Position numbers and translations under genes: made by a program. The notes below the pieces were generated by a model, which was given only the letters and a program-made list of their open reading frames with translations, did not search any database and was not told the origin of the DNA. From a virus, in IMG/VR virus record IMGVR_UViG_3300024999_000162, positions 1 to 46,691 of that record: DNA of 46,691 nt; one strand, 5' to 3'. Below are positions 4,395 to 29,500 of this stretch, piece by piece (position 1 is the first letter of the stretch; each line of letters begins with the position of its first letter).

Positions 4395-4423
4395 ATTATA
4401 CTACCCTTATAGTAGTATGTCAA
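4395..4423 (-). promoter_or_regulatory. Consensus promoter with embedded palindrome (Rha unit)
   Basis: On the minus strand TTGACA and TATAAT, both perfect, are separated by 17 nt (-35 at 4418-4423, -10 at 4395-4400). The spacer is filled by an inverted repeat, TACTAC-N7-GTAGTA (4399-4417), ideally placed for a repressor to block RNA polymerase. The XRE protein encoded divergently is the obvious candidate. Confidence 0.85.
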
Positions 4424-17764: not shown

Positions 17765-19543
17765 TTAAACGGTTTTAACGATAAAATTATCGAAAGTAGA
17801 TAATATTTCATTAGCCACTTTCAAACCAACTTTTGTAGAACTTTGATTCACTGTATTTGTAATACTTATTCTTTCTACATCATCAAGATATACTTTTACA
17901 GATGAACCATTCGCCACGACTCTAATATTATAAGTATTCCCTTGAACTGGAGTAAAAGAATATGTTCCATAAGTATTACCTGAAGCATCAGATACAGCAA
18001 GTCCAGTTGAACTAATTCTTGCTTGCATTAAACTAGTTACACCGATATACCTAAATACAATACCTGCCCAAGTATTCCACACTATGTCGGCACTAACATC
18101 TACATCTGATATACCGGAATCAATAGTTGCAATTGCGGTAGTTGTTGTCAGTGATGTAGGTTTAGCTTTATTGCTTGCAATTCCAAATACTCCATTACTA
18201 TTAGTCCAGTTAAGATCGCCAGTTTCCGTAATACCCAAACTTGAAGAATTATCTCCCTTAGTGAAGGTATCGGACGCTATTGTAATAATTGGTCGCTTAT
18301 AGAAAACAATTCTTTTATATACAGATAACCCTTCATTATTTGTAACTTTTAATATCATCGTGTGATAATCTTCCGACAACAGCGATATATCTTGACCATG
18401 ACTATACGTTATATGATTTCTCGTTGGAGTTATCACACTATAATCATTGTCGTCAATTTTTAATTCATGAGTGCAATTCATATCGGCATCATAAGTAACG
18501 GTTAAAATTAAACTTGTTGTACTAACTGCTACGTTTTTTATCTTTGGATTATATGCAGTTAATGATGATTTTTTTTCATGCTCTTGCAATGTACCAAGCA
18601 GGTAATTAGACAGATGCATCAGATAATAAAATAAATCTGTGCTACCGTTATTTTCTCCACCATAGCGAGTAGGATGGTATTCTATGGTTCCACAAGATAT
18701 ACCAATTATACTCCAGGCGTAATGTAATTTATGAGAAGTTTCAGCATCCATAAAACGGTCTACTGGTTCCCTGCTTAATTCTGTTCTTACCCTATCATCA
18801 AGCCATTCTACCGCATTAGACATGCCATCTTGTGTTGCATAGTCGCCATTAACATAATATAAAAATTGGTCGTAATCCCAACCAGTACCATTTCCAACAT
18901 GTAAATCGAACCAAAATTCTGCATCGTCCTTATACTCTAAAAGCATATCACGAATAAGCACAGCCTCATTTTCTGAAAATGGGGCAGTACCTTTCATATT
19001 CCATGCATCTTCAACTAGAGTATCCCAATTTGCTTGTGTAGTGAAATTGCTATTAATATTAACACTATTTACATTGCCGAAAACCTTTGGAGATTGATTA
19101 AACCCCCAGGGATTCCATAATGGAACGCAAATAATACGAACATTATCCCTCAGATAACGATAAAATGGATTTATGTCTGGATTATTCACAATATAGCCGA
19201 TTAATAAAGCCAATCCAAACATACTAGGGTGTTCTGTTGCATGCATACCTGCCGAAATAATAATAGTTCTCTCATAGTTTAGAGGTTCAAAAACGTATTT
19301 ATATACGTCATAAACATTTGATTCATCTTTGCCTAATGATGTTTTTGCTACAATGTATCCATCACTTTTAGTGCCGATATGCAAATCATAGAAAGTTGCT
19401 AAAAAAGTATCTGCATTCATTGTAGGATTTGCATATTCATTAGATTGTGCTGGAGGTTCAAAGAAAGATAAGTCTAAACTTATTAAAACCTGTTTTCTTA
19501 AAGTATTTAGTTGTGGCATTAGAGAAGTTCTATATCCAGACAT
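17765..19543 (-). CDS. M14-type zinc peptidase-like virion protein with C-terminal LamG-like domain, 592 aa
   Basis: The ATG at 19543 is chosen because GGGAGG lies 7 nt upstream and TAATG links it to the previous gene. Residues about 85-320 carry M14 carboxypeptidase-fold signatures: HATE (H101, E104, the HxxE zinc pair), FDLHVGNG (H215, third zinc ligand) and GTIEYHP (E288, catalytic Glu). The NPDG-like turn is NPWG. The stretch normally reading DLNRNF reads NINSNF, so the arginine that grips a substrate carboxylate is Ser here. Residues about 400-592 form a beta-sandwich of LamG/DUF1080 type (SADIVWNTWAGIVFRY, NIRVVANGSSVKVYLDDV). It may cut a surface polymer such as cell-wall peptide or poly-gamma-glutamate. 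Confidence 0.78.
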   Translation of the reverse strand: MSGYRTSLMPQLNTLRKQVLISLDLSFFEPPAQSNEYANPTMNADTFLATFYDLHIGTKSDGYIVAKTSLGKDESNVYDVYKYVFEPLNYERTIIISAGMHATEHPSMFGLALLIGYIVNNPDINPFYRYLRDNVRIICVPLWNPWGFNQSPKVFGNVNSVNINSNFTTQANWDTLVEDAWNMKGTAPFSENEAVLIRDMLLEYKDDAEFWFDLHVGNGTGWDYDQFLYYVNGDYATQDGMSNAVEWLDDRVRTELSREPVDRFMDAETSHKLHYAWSIIGISCGTIEYHPTRYGGENNGSTDLFYYLMHLSNYLLGTLQEHEKKSSLTAYNPKIKNVAVSTTSLILTVTYDADMNCTHELKIDDNDYSVITPTRNHITYSHGQDISLLSEDYHTMILKVTNNEGLSVYKRIVFYKRPIITIASDTFTKGDNSSSLGITETGDLNWTNSNGVFGIASNKAKPTSLTTTTAIATIDSGISDVDVSADIVWNTWAGIVFRYIGVTSLMQARISSTGLAVSDASGNTYGTYSFTPVQGNTYNIRVVANGSSVKVYLDDVERISITNTVNQSSTKVGLKVANEILSTFDNFIVKTV

Positions 19544-20025
19544 TATACTAACCTCCCAACGATACAAGAGATTCCGGCAGGTACAGTTACATCCACTGAA
19601 GGAGTGCCACCTAACTGCCTATCCCATCCACCAGGAGGTACGGTTATTGTTATTCCATTAACTATAAACTCTTGCCAAGTTAATTCATTATGAAATATTT
19701 CAATTGCTGATATGTTTGCGGAGAATGTAATTACATTAGCAACCGCATCAGAATCAGTTTTTTGTTCCGCAAGAATACTACCAGTTAGTTGCACACTCGC
19801 CGGATTAGCAGCGGTAAACTTCTCGTCACCGTCTGCGTCTACAGGAATAAACTTACCAGTTATCGCTGTACCTGCCGCTAACTTTGCGGTTATTGAACCG
19901 TCGGCATTTAGGACTAGACCGACTATTTTATTGTCACCGTCAACACCGCCTATGGTGATGGGGTTAGTATTTGCCGCAGTTGTGCCGACTGGATTTTTAC
20001 CTTCTGCGATAGAAATATAAAACAC
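19543..20025 (-). CDS. Hypothetical beta-rich virion protein, about 160 aa
   Basis: Short beta strands predominate (KIVGLVLNADGSITAKLAAGTAITGKFIPV, ITITVPPGGWDRQLGG), consistent with a small head or tail decoration protein. The start is unclear. The GTG at 20025 overlaps the GGAGG itself and is too close, while an ATT at 20014-20016 sits 8 nt after GGAGG and would give MSIAEGKNPVG. It follows the capsid gene after a terminator and is coupled by TAATG to the M14-like gene. Confidence 0.65.
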   Translation of the reverse strand: MFYISIAEGKNPVGTTAANTNPITIGGVDGDNKIVGLVLNADGSITAKLAAGTAITGKFIPVDADGDEKFTAANPASVQLTGSILAEQKTDSDAVANVITFSANISAIEIFHNELTWQEFIVNGITITVPPGGWDRQLGGTPSVDVTVPAGISCIVGRLV

Positions 20026-20077: not shown

Positions 20078-20249
20078 TTACGCAGGTTTACAACCGTAAA
20101 TAAAGCTGAAATCGTCCCAACCATAGGAGAAACGGGCAATAGTGGCATACTTAGCGATCTCAGTATCGAAGTCCTCAGTTGCCTTAAATCCAGGTTTCCT
20201 TCTCCAATACCAATTTAAGAACATCTTCATTCTCTCGCTATCACACATA
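20078..20249 (-). CDS. Major capsid protein, exon 2
   Basis: This 172-nt exon encodes the conserved gpT-like capsid C-terminus: CDSERMKMFLNWYWRRKPGF, then FDTEIAKYATIARFSYGW, ending FIYGCKPA and TAA. It has no start codon or ribosome-binding site of its own, and an in-frame stop lies only a few codons upstream inside the intron. Joined to exon 1 it restores 903 nt, a complete 300-aa capsid protein. The exact first base (20249) is inferred from frame, from the intron-terminal G and from P10 pairing. Confidence 0.85.
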
Positions 20250-21434
20250 CCTTATGTTAACTACATGTTTCCATGCAGAGCAGACTATATCATCCCTTTC
20301 GGGGACGGCGCTAATGGACATTATTGTTTCCTCAGTCCTAGTCGTTGAACCTTCACCCACCCTCGTCATTACTGACTACATTGGGTGCTTGGCTGCTGAT
20401 TTCCCATTGTTTCATCCACTAACTTTTCTAGCCTTCACATTCACCGTTACCAGTCGTGTTGTGGCATAGTGGTTTTAGGGGGTTCCAGCAATTCACCGTC
20501 TTTGCAATTATATCTGTGAACAGTTTTTCATAATCCTTTTCATGTCCGTTGACCTTATTTCTATGACAATCATCACAAAGCGAAATTAAGTTATCTTTAT
20601 CAAATATCTTAGATGAATCTTCCTTCACTGTTATTATATGATGAACGATTATATTGGATTTACTTCCGCACAACTGACATGTCCAATTATCCCTGTTTCT
20701 AATCTCGTCTCTTATTTTTTGATATTGAGACGTTTGTCTTTTGTCTGCGTTTTCTGTCCAATGTCCACCTTTCCAGTTAAAGGCTTTTTCTCCTGTAAAA
20801 TTTTCATGCCAGTGAGAACTCTTACATTCTTTAGAGCAATAAAGGAATTTTGTATCTCTAAGTCTATACGGCCATACAAGTATTTCCTTGTTACACCAAG
20901 CGCAATTTGCCATAACCTTGTTTTTAACATACACTCTCTTAGACTTCTTACTAGCCAAATATCTGCTGCTTGATGTGTCTCTTTTATTGATATTGTGTTT
21001 GTTTAGCCAGTATTGAATGGATGATTTTTTCGATCCGTATTTATCGGCAATTTCGCTAGTAGATAAATTCTCCATCCAATAATCTCTATACAAAACATCA
21101 TAATTCTTGTATGGTTGTTCTATTACTTCTTTTTTGACCTTATCTTTCCTTTTCCTTTTCTTGCCCATCCATAAGACTGCCGCATCTGATTTATTTCTCA
21201 TTGGCACTTTAAGAGTTTTAATCCATCTTTTAATCGTCTGAACATGCACACCATATTTAAGTGCCATCTCAGAACTACTTAATTTCTCATTCCAATGGTC
21301 GTTATATAAGGAATCGTAGGTAGGAATACTCAATAACTACACCTCCCTATATAATTGTAAACTTTTCTTAATTGATTGTCAACGAATAAATTAGATTATT
21401 GACTGGTAACATATATAATGGGTCCTAGTGTTTG
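20250..21434 (-). mobile_element. Group I self-splicing intron in the capsid gene, with HNH ORF
   Basis: Read on the minus strand, the 3' part shows the group I core. The P4-side element AATCAGCAGCCAAGC lies at 20387-20401, the R element GTTCAACGACTAGGAC at 20335-20350, and the S element GATGATATAGTCTG at 20281-20294. GACTA and TAGTC in the last two form P7. At the 5' end, exon ..GGTT pairs with intron GACC, leaving the expected U-G wobble at the cut (P1). Intron ACAC..TA can pair with exon-2 TA..GTGT (P10, one bulge). The intron starts CAAACACTAGG and ends AAGG. The 1185-nt length includes the endonuclease gene. Boundaries could shift by a base or two. Confidence 0.92.
20428..21333 (-). CDS. 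Intron-encoded HNH homing endonuclease, 301 aa
   Basis: The TTG start at 21333 has GGGAGGT 7 nt upstream. Two HTH repeats at the N-terminus (about 8-45 and 80-118: LYNDHWNEKLSSSEMALKYG.. and LYRDYWMENLSTSEIADKYG..) probably give target specificity. A CxxC ribbon follows (C144, C147, C166, C170). The HNH nuclease is at about 206-262: RDNWTCQLCG (C219, C222), VHHI (H231, H232), N248, CDDCH (C253, C256, H257). The gene lies wholly inside the intron and ends 27 nt before the P4-side core element. It should cut intron-less capsid alleles to spread the intron. Confidence 0.93.
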   Translation of the reverse strand: MSIPTYDSLYNDHWNEKLSSSEMALKYGVHVQTIKRWIKTLKVPMRNKSDAAVLWMGKKRKRKDKVKKEVIEQPYKNYDVLYRDYWMENLSTSEIADKYGSKKSSIQYWLNKHNINKRDTSSSRYLASKKSKRVYVKNKVMANCAWCNKEILVWPYRLRDTKFLYCSKECKSSHWHENFTGEKAFNWKGGHWTENADKRQTSQYQKIRDEIRNRDNWTCQLCGSKSNIIVHHIITVKEDSSKIFDKDNLISLCDDCHRNKVNGHEKDYEKLFTDIIAKTVNCWNPLKPLCHNTTGNGECEG

Positions 21435-22165
21435 AACCAAACGTCAGGGTCGGTCAACCAGGGCCATTCAATAACGTTGAACTTTCCTTTCCACACGTTA
21501 ATGCCATGGTCAGTTGTCCCCGGTTTTTCGTCAGTACCGGCAATGACTAAAGCAGGTTCAAGTCCCTCAGTCGGAACTACAATGGTGTCAGGCATAACCA
21601 AGAACTGATTTGCCTTGTCGTCCTCCCACCGGCGCATATTGTTTCTGACGGTAGTCACGTTATCGGCAGTCAGCGCATACGCACCAAAGTTAGAAGTTAC
21701 TGCTGTACTGCCAGGTGCTTTCGGGTGTGAAGCAGAACAAAGTGCAACATTATCAGGACCCTTAAAAGATGCGTTAAAAGCATTGTTAAACGGCAGCGCA
21801 GCGTGGTACTGAATAGTTCTGTATTCAACCATACGGAGATTCTTAACACGCTTCTTAATCTCGCCGTATTGTTCATCGTCCACAAGTTCACGCTCGATTT
21901 GCGTGCCCTTGGAGTATTTGCGGTGAATGTAGTTGGAGGTGTAACCCTTCTTGATGTCCTCATAGGCAACCTTATTCCCGGTTGCGCTCCATTCTTCCAT
22001 TAGTCCTAAGTCACCGATACCCTGGTTAGTCTCTTGTGCCTTAGTGGAATTCTCCACGTTATACATCAGACCAAGGTAATCCTTTTCCTTCTTACCAGCA
22101 AGGTCGAATATTTTTCTTAAACCCGGTTCGAGTTGCTCCGCCCAATTTTCAGAAATCATTGGCAT
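21435..22165 (-). CDS. Major capsid protein, exon 1 (gpT-like)
   Basis: Start ATG at 22165 with GAGGAAAA upstream. The protein opens ENWAEQLEPGLRKIFDLAG and contains G.VAYEDIKKGYTSNYIHRKYSKGTQIERELVDDE, CSASHPKAPGS and PWLTDPDVWF, all familiar from HK97-fold Mu-gpT-like major heads. Read without splicing it would end in KH-stop after 246 residues, lacking the last conserved about 57 residues. Those are found intact in exon 2. The predicted spliced protein has 300 aa, normal for the family. Confidence 0.93.
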
Positions 22166-27448: not shown

Positions 27449-29500
27449 TCACATACCGTAAAACCCCGGTAATCCTTCTTCTTCCTCGTCGTCATTGTCA
27501 TCTGCCCATTGCTCCATAGACATAGGATCGATCCTTACACCCTTGTCCTGTCCCGGTAGAAACGGTATACTGCCGGTGTCTTTAAGTGGCGTTGTCATAT
27601 GGACATATACACCGATAGCAGACATTAAAATAACATCGTCGTGCTGACCGCCTCTTGCCGCCTCTTTGCCGTTTGGGTGTCTAACAAAGTTCATTGCTTC
27701 ATCGACAAAGCGTTTCCAATAGCACTCAAAAACACCTTCACGCACAACCTTTTTAATAGCATCAACAACCAAAGGACGGGTTTTCGTCCCAGTTAAAAAG
27801 CCAAGTTTTTGAGTTGTGGTATCAGTTCTTTTGTCGTGAATACGAGTTCTATATATATCATAGTAGACACGTTTTAAATGACTGATCGTTGTGCCGCCAT
27901 GATTATTTAACTCAGGTATGAGCATCGGCATACCATAATATATCGCCAATCTGTGCATATAGTCGGCAAGTATATCAGGTTCGATATGTCCATGATACAC
28001 AGCATCTAACCTTAATCTATGCCGGTTAATAACGCCTACAGCATCGAAGTCGCCATGCTCTAATCCCTCTGCAACGTCAGCAGGTATTAAATACTCTGCC
28101 ACCGGTTCGGGATGGAACCATACTTCATATTCTCCCTTTTCATCAGGAACCCAATATACTTGTGTCTTAGCAGGACTTGTCCAAACAAGATTACCTCTTT
28201 CACCGTCATAACACTTATCCTGCATTTCCGCAATTCTGCCGATATTAAAAGAACATTTCCCTGGCATGATAAAACGCCCATATTTCCGCGCTTCTAACTC
28301 CGCTTCATCTAAGGACGTTTCAAGACGTTTCTTTTCTTTTGTAGATAAGTGTGGGTTATCGTCCCATTGCATCATCATACAGAATATTTCATCGTCTCGC
28401 TTCTCAATTGGTTTTGAGTCGTTAAGATATATAGTATCATAAACATACGTCATGCCGGATAGAGGTGTCATTGTACCAAACATATCACCTTCGGTATCCA
28501 TTAGACGCATTTGACACTCAGTGTAAATATCCTTCGGTCCTTCTTCGTCCATCCAAACATAGTGCTGACTAGAACCTTGAAACTTCTCTCTGCCTTGGTC
28601 ATAGGACTTGAAACCGATAAGACTGCCGTTATTTAATCGAATAGTATCAATAATCCCGGTACTGCGGTAGGTTATCTTCTTAATTTCTCTTAGTGGCAAT
28701 AATCCAGGTATTCCAGTTTCAACGTCACCCAATATCTTCTTTTGTGTAACGTCCCTTTGTACCTCGAAGGATACAGAGCATACCCAACCGCGAGTAGGTT
28801 TACCGCCAAAACGGGTTATTAAAGGTTCGTATTGTTCCCTTAAATCCTCCGACCAATCTTTGAGGTAAGGTCTAATACTCTCACCTAAAGCATAGAATAC
28901 TGCTTTAATTGCACCACTTTCAGTTTTTCCTGTGTTATGCACCACAATACCATTAGCAATAAAGGCATGGTCGGGGTGGTCAATGGTTATGTCGTAGACT
29001 GGTTTAATGCCTGTCTGTCTAATAGACACTACCTTCTTGTGATAGTAAGGTACGGTTACAGCAAAACTGTATTCATTTAACTGCTCCGATAATAACCACT
29101 TATTACCTTCCGTTAATATCGGATGATCGTCGGAACACTCCAACTTATTGCCACCATAAAAAGTTATCTCACGACAAGACTTATCCCCGGTATATCCTGC
29201 GCCAATAACATTAGATGGTACTGTTTTTCTTGTCGCTATGTCATAGGCAAGAACGGTATCACCAACTACAACGTCCTCTACTGCCTTAGTAGTACCATCT
29301 GCCATATAGACCATTTGACCGGCGACTAAGCACCTATTACCACCCAACGCCCAAGCATTTCTCTTGCCGCATAAATGAAATTGTTGTTGCTTTGCGAACG
29401 GACGAATAAAGCGAATATGTTCTTCCTTCTTCATCCGTTCAATTTCGCTGAGTATCTTTTGGAGTTCTTTCTTTTCTGCCTTGGTTAGTTCTTTTGCCAT
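27449..29500 (-). CDS. terL: Terminase large subunit containing a mini-intein, 683 aa precursor
   Basis: The ATG at 29500 begins a DNA-packaging ATPase/nuclease. The Walker A loop GGNR-TGKTE is split: GGNR ends at residue 56, TGKTE starts at 190, and a 133-aa intein lies between. After splicing the loop reads GGNRTGKTE and the protein is about 550 aa, normal for TerL. Walker B is YVWMDEE (about 314-320). The C-terminal nuclease shows IPADVAEGLEHGDFDAVGV, an LIPELNNHG stretch and QHDDVILMSA. Until the intein is excised the ATPase site cannot form. It follows the small terminase and accessory genes in the late operon and precedes the portal. Confidence 0.95.
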   Translation of the reverse strand: MAKELTKAEKKELQKILSEIERMKKEEHIRFIRPFAKQQQFHLCGKRNAWALGGNRCLVAGQMVYMADGTTKAVEDVVVGDTVLAYDIATRKTVPSNVIGAGYTGDKSCREITFYGGNKLECSDDHPILTEGNKWLLSEQLNEYSFAVTVPYYHKKVVSIRQTGIKPVYDITIDHPDHAFIANGIVVHNTGKTESGAIKAVFYALGESIRPYLKDWSEDLREQYEPLITRFGGKPTRGWVCSVSFEVQRDVTQKKILGDVETGIPGLLPLREIKKITYRSTGIIDTIRLNNGSLIGFKSYDQGREKFQGSSQHYVWMDEEGPKDIYTECQMRLMDTEGDMFGTMTPLSGMTYVYDTIYLNDSKPIEKRDDEIFCMMMQWDDNPHLSTKEKKRLETSLDEAELEARKYGRFIMPGKCSFNIGRIAEMQDKCYDGERGNLVWTSPAKTQVYWVPDEKGEYEVWFHPEPVAEYLIPADVAEGLEHGDFDAVGVINRHRLRLDAVYHGHIEPDILADYMHRLAIYYGMPMLIPELNNHGGTTISHLKRVYYDIYRTRIHDKRTDTTTQKLGFLTGTKTRPLVVDAIKKVVREGVFECYWKRFVDEAMNFVRHPNGKEAARGGQHDDVILMSAIGVYVHMTTPLKDTGSIPFLPGQDKGVRIDPMSMEQWADDNDDEEEEGLPGFYGM
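28934..29332 (-). mobile_element. Mini-intein in the TerL Walker A loop, 133 aa
   Basis: Precursor residues 57-189. Block A begins with Cys57 (CLVAGQMVYMADGTTKAVEDV). Block B reads LECSDDHPIL with His126; the usual TxxH Thr is Ser123. Block F reads VYDITIDHPDHAFIANG (Asp170, His178). Block G ends GIVVHN with His188-Asn189. The first downstream extein residue is Thr190. About 30 residues separate block B from block F, leaving no room for a homing endonuclease. All residues for standard class 1 splicing are present, so it is expected to be active but no longer self-mobile. Confidence 0.95.

Follow-up and report, generated by a model that had tools for sequence, protein, structure and literature searches.

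Layout of the interrupted capsid gene

The window, i.e., the whole 46,691-nt stretch of viral DNA that was analysed, carries three open reading frames in succession on the minus strand of the capsid locus: a 246-residue frame, an HNH endonuclease frame (21333-20428) and a 56-residue frame that ends at position 20078. The first of these (246 codons, 21425-22165, minus strand) has the C-terminal end ...LTDPDVWFKH* and runs into intervening DNA at 20250-21434 (minus strand, 1,185 nt), which is described below as a group I intron. When this DNA is removed, capsid exon 1 (21435-22165, minus strand, 731 nt) and capsid exon 2 (20078-20249, minus strand, 172 nt) are joined into 903 nt, or 301 codons (300 residues and a stop). 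Exon 1 encodes residues 1-243 and two bases of the Phe-244 codon, and exon 2 supplies the last base of that codon and continues through residue 300 to the stop. The exon 1 product belongs to PHROG 371, major head protein. The first-pass annotation had proposed both the interruption at 20250-21434 and the exact sum of 301 codons from 731 and 172 nt; the coordinates proved correct to the base, with the junction matched by intronless relatives, and the recomputed codon count agrees.

Exon 1 ends in U and the intron ends in G (...AAGG|U). Several other in-frame joins also obey this U-before, G-end rule, so the rule alone is insufficient to fix the junction, which is established by the relatives. 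A junction one base further on (TTC|A...T|ATG) would give the same protein and was set aside because it violates the rule.

The joined protein was used as a query and matched 17 viral contigs. Eight of them (L002-L009) carry a complete, uninterrupted capsid gene of 300 codons with nucleotide identity of 80-92%, and two partial genes (L010, L014) are continuous over the junction. In all ten intronless contigs, TGGTT is directly followed by the codon of the next residue, which is the predicted spliced layout. The uninterrupted alleles found in distant relatives and cultured phages span 25-60% identity; they comprise those of more remote viruses (59%, 36% and 34%), of a contig of a bacterial metagenome-assembled genome (41%) and of the cultured phages QDWS535, MinM2 and DSL-LC04 (25-28%), and all of them keep the exon 2 segment. 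The alignment of the joined protein to its uninterrupted relatives, a check suggested with the first-pass annotation, thus indicates that the C-terminus missing from the 246-residue frame is real and conserved. Beyond the putative converted tract described below, exon 2 has dN/dS of 0.03-0.11 against seven relatives, i.e., it is under purifying selection, which would be expected of a sequence still translated as part of the capsid. A short contig (L016:4037-4398) is 99.7% identical to the start of the window's capsid gene and ends before the intron site. A capsid search of bacterial and archaeal genomes returned two distant relatives (39-40%) and no host.

The capsid had been called gpT-like. 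The likeness is only partial, as the homology to Mu gpT ends at about residue 237. The Pfam Mu gpT model (PF10124) matches residues 164-237 only (46.8 bits, above cut-off), and Phage_capsid_4 matches residues 69-271, a segment that spans the junction. The C-terminus of Mu gpT itself aligns with about residue 237-238, leaving residues 240-300 with no Mu C-terminal counterpart. In Mu gpT the matched segment forms the extreme C-terminus, and therefore a comparison with Mu only would make the short form look complete. A swap of segment order relative to Mu gpT, hinted at by JBD30 (13 bits), was rejected after losing to shuffled Mu (2.6 vs. 5.9 bits). In JBD30 and Mu, a WF-D-R-P motif like that in exon 2 precedes the segment matching the gpT C-terminal part (capsid residues 162-238). 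AlphaFold2 models of the intronless L004 capsid reached a pLDDT of 33 with 8 sequences and 47 with 12 sequences; the latter gave a weak phage capsid match (SU10, E 6e-4) and was dropped as proof that exon 2 is structurally needed.

Ribozyme core and endonuclease gene

The Rfam group I intron model, whose use had been suggested with the first-pass annotation, was matched at 20552-20261 on the minus strand (RF00028, 63.3 bits, above the gathering score of 50 bits; E 7.8e-14). The match covers the complete model (1-253), defines the catalytic core (20261-20552) and is the sole group I match within the whole window. The elements named in the first-pass annotation (the P4 side, P7 as GACTA/TAGTC and P1 with a U-G at the cut) are all present in the RNA. 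In P1 (21421-21438, minus strand), exon GGUU and the first intron C pair with GGACC (21421-21425), which places a U.G pair at the 5' splice site. The 5' strand of P3 lies at 20495-20500 and its 3' strand (CGCCGUC) at 20304-20310, the 3' strand of P4 reads CAGCAG, and P6 (20354-20387) is formed by CACCCA/UGGGUG, all on the minus strand. P7, with GACUA at 20339-20343 and UAGUC at 20283-20287 (minus strand), closes a pseudoknot; its motif occurs in at least 120 stretches in viral contigs. An unconstrained fold of the last 256 nt of the intron recovered P3, P4, P5, P6, P7.1, P8 and P9. P7.1 suggests an intron that we take to be subgroup IA-like. The P10 that had been thought plausible is weak: the putative pairing between exon 2 and the guide sequence is poor (about 3-5 imperfect pairs, judged by eye). 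The closing pair of P6 is A-U in the window and G-C in a second intron-bearing lineage (L011), and covariation is limited to this one clear compensatory pair given the two distinct intron alleles known. As the core is intact, we infer that the intron RNA splices itself with guanosine.

The intron encodes an HNH endonuclease of 301 amino acids with a TTG start (20428-21333, minus strand). The protein has two N-terminal helix-turn-helix-like repeats, a zinc-finger-like segment and an HNH domain (residues 219-261), with matches to PF01844 (2.9e-8) and PHROG 8446 (2.2e-34), and the conserved HNH Cys and His residues are readable in its sequence (CxxC...VHH...N...CDDCH). A search for further copies of the gene found decayed copies and distant HNH proteins only. 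Its frame occupies intron positions 102-1007, 5' of the core and between P1 and P3, and the last ~24 codons overlap P3/P4/P5, a stretch that is read here as doing double duty in protein and ribozyme.

The gene is preceded by candidate signals of its own expression. A ribosome-binding site, GGGAGGTG, lies a few bases ahead of the TTG start (21340-21347, minus strand), and upstream of the gene, still within the intron, is a predicted sigma-70-like promoter (21354-21382, minus strand; TTGACA-17-TACAAT) that agrees with the consensus at 11 of 12 bases, by consensus match only. A stricter promoter pattern occurs twice in the window where 0.16 would be expected, and a looser scan of the window as a whole shows no excess over shuffles; because of the latter the intronic promoter is graded as a lead only. 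The sole other strict match in the window is at 4395-4423 (minus strand). The computed cost of opening the HNH start region is 10.6-12.7 kcal/mol in the long transcript vs. 6.0-8.0 kcal/mol in the promoter-started transcript, and 4.3-9.1 kcal/mol for the other genes of the window. In the full-length transcript, masking of the start site is thus predicted.

Other features of the window and of related contigs were observed. The terminase large subunit gene (27449-29500, minus strand) contains a mini-intein of ~132 residues (residues 57-188, CLVAGQ...VVHN|T) that interrupts the Walker A motif (GGNR|TGKT) and is absent from the L011-type contigs and the L006, L005 and L009 records. The L005 and L009 terminases carry a ~350-residue insert near residue 316 that is weakly similar to an intein, and in the L002 record the reading frame of the terminase (G001:C1:11390-12875) is broken around residue 317, where these two relatives carry their large insert; the break may be either a sequencing error or a scar. 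Among the genes for virion structure is one (17765-19567, minus strand) for a 600-residue protein with a zinc carboxypeptidase (M14) domain. A tRNA gene (735-807) lies close to the end of the window, on the plus strand, whereas most genes are on the minus strand.

Allele states and signs of intron mobility

The same intron is found at the same base in L011, L012, L013 and L015, where it is 460 nt long. These four contigs come from four metagenomes, are mutually identical over 10.7 kb and were counted as one allele. Their intron core scores 61.8 bits against RF00028, and their HNH gene has been cut down to the last ~70-79 codons, with the first half of the HNH motif gone. An empty contig (L002) and an occupied contig (L013) come from one and the same metagenome (3300025010). 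The remaining relatives at hand, most of which are fragments, hold neither the intron nor the HNH gene. One site is therefore patchily occupied, and the alleles show it empty, with intron and endonuclease, and with intron and decayed endonuclease; as judged from these sequences, the empty, active and decayed states of a homing cycle coexist in one virus group.

The patchy occupancy is accompanied by a flanking exon tract of donor type. The window's capsid gene is mostly of the type of its intronless siblings (L002-L004), and so are the diagnostic sites closest to the junction on the upstream side (721 back to 534). Past the junction, nine diagnostic sites in succession (737-753) are L011-type, and bases 733-756 are identical to L011. 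These 24 nt (20225-20248, minus strand), which differ from the nearest intronless siblings, form a probable co-converted exon tract. When the labels were rotated, 1 of 144 positions gave such a run at the junction; part of the short tract is also shared by the intronless L007 and L009. The tract fits exon co-conversion and, like the dS values that follow, a transfer of the intron later than the divergence of the host genes.

Between the two intron-bearing lineages, dS is 1.14 (95% 0.78-1.70) in capsid exon 1 and 0.22 (0.10-0.45) in the HNH remnant common to both, and therefore the intron was probably exchanged after the host genes had diverged. The low value of the remnant is partly due to its overlap with the ribozyme core, and the portion upstream of the overlap alone gives 0.44 on 45 codons, i.e., few sites. 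Conservatively speaking, the dS comparison is for this reason moderate rather than strong.

These observations can be placed in the following scheme. The capsid RNA would fold and self-splice with guanosine, joining exons 1 and 2 into the message for a 300-residue capsid protein, and the HNH protein would be made from its own intronic promoter. The protein would then cut or nick intronless alleles near the junction, and recombination repair would copy in the intron together with a short stretch of flanking exon. The endonuclease gene thereby probably spreads the intron. We assign a probability of about 0.93 to the reading that a mobile group I intron splits the major capsid gene of an uncultured phage.

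Three other explanations bear on the same data. The 246-residue frame could be a functional capsid in itself, followed by a free-standing HNH insertion and a dead fragment. The end of the Pfam gpT match at residue 237, together with the end of Mu gpT at the equivalent of residue 238, would agree with this, as would the ATG of the downstream fragment with AAGG just ahead of it, although the AAGG is not kept in L011. We consider this reading very improbable: the last 56 residues, with their conserved positions, occur in all full-length relatives from 97% down to 25% identity, exon 2 bears the mark of purifying selection, and the intervening DNA contains a match to the complete group I model. Even less weight, close to none, is given to an assembly chimera that placed an HNH/intron fragment in the capsid gene. 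The window is indeed a metagenomic contig, but four further assemblies, from another lineage, have this intron at the identical base, and the junction is exactly as expected of a group I intron.

It is also conceivable, and in our judgment unlikely, that the HNH protein no longer cuts and that the element is inherited vertically, as the decayed HNH gene of the sister lineage might suggest. Against this, the window's HNH frame is intact over 301 codons, with the HNH domain, a ribosome-binding site and a promoter candidate; the intron has diverged much less than the surrounding exons and is flanked by exon sequence of donor type; and the nearest siblings are intronless.

Comparison with known introns

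Introns in capsid genes have been described before, and the location is less unusual than the first-pass annotation claimed when it called it uncommon. In mycobacteriophage LittleE, a capsid-gene intron was confirmed by RT-PCR and N-terminal sequencing, and a capsid intron of lactococcal phage Tuc2009 is cited in the same paper (PMC3706429). As in the window, the major capsid gene of LittleE is interrupted by a probable group I intron that carries an endonuclease gene; a U precedes the intron, a G ends it and intronless relatives are known. The LittleE endonuclease, called both HNH and LAGLIDADG-like in its paper, is on the opposite strand, whereas the HNH gene of the window is co-directional; splicing was demonstrated by RT-PCR in LittleE and is deduced from sequence in the window (PMC3706429). 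In Delta crAss-like phages, group I introns in the capsid gene and a terminase intein are typical, and the Delta and Zeta groups resemble the window in combining capsid group I introns with an intein in the terminase large subunit (PMC7886860). They are a different phage group, with one capsid gene in five fragments as opposed to the single insertion in the window (PMC7886860). Among annotated phages, the best-covered DNA match to the core is in Alicyclobacillus phage KKP_3916 (61906-62061; 72% over about 166 nt), where only part of the core is alike and the locus is unannotated.

The predicted expression control of the HNH gene has a counterpart in the td intron of T4, where long transcripts mask the start site of I-TevI and a late promoter frees it (PMC2988022). 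Both introns contain a promoter, a candidate one in the window, directly upstream of the endonuclease gene, a masked start (predicted in the window) and exon co-conversion on homing, to which the window's exon tract may correspond. They differ in that I-TevI is a GIY-YIG enzyme and the window's endonuclease HNH, that the T4 promoter is a phage late promoter and the window's sigma-70-like, and that the control in T4 is experimental and in the window predicted (PMC2988022). In the Bastillevirinae, most group I introns are IA-like and many carry HNH genes (PMC11878797).

In PhiPA3, too, an essential gene contains a group I intron that encodes an HNH endonuclease, and relatives lacking the intron are the likely targets of the enzyme (PMC11620839; PMC11878797), although the intron sits in an RNA polymerase gene and not in the capsid gene (PMC11878797). 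Interference with a co-infecting phage has been demonstrated for PhiPA3 and is a possibility by analogy for the window (PMC11620839). We tentatively suggest, as an idea more doubtful than not, that the window's endonuclease acts as a weapon that cuts the capsid gene of intronless siblings and suppresses their virion production in mixed infections, with its timing set by the intronic promoter and the masking of the start site.

The intron of the window is a well-supported, clear case of a known type of element, and what it contributes is a set of natural alleles that runs from empty through active to decayed. Gene callers would report a truncated capsid of 246 residues and an unrelated endonuclease at this locus, and therefore capsid-based trees and counts would be misread. 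The three stages of the homing cycle, together with the putative footprint of co-conversion, would let this virus group serve as a compact natural illustration of how an intron invades an essential structural gene and decays there.
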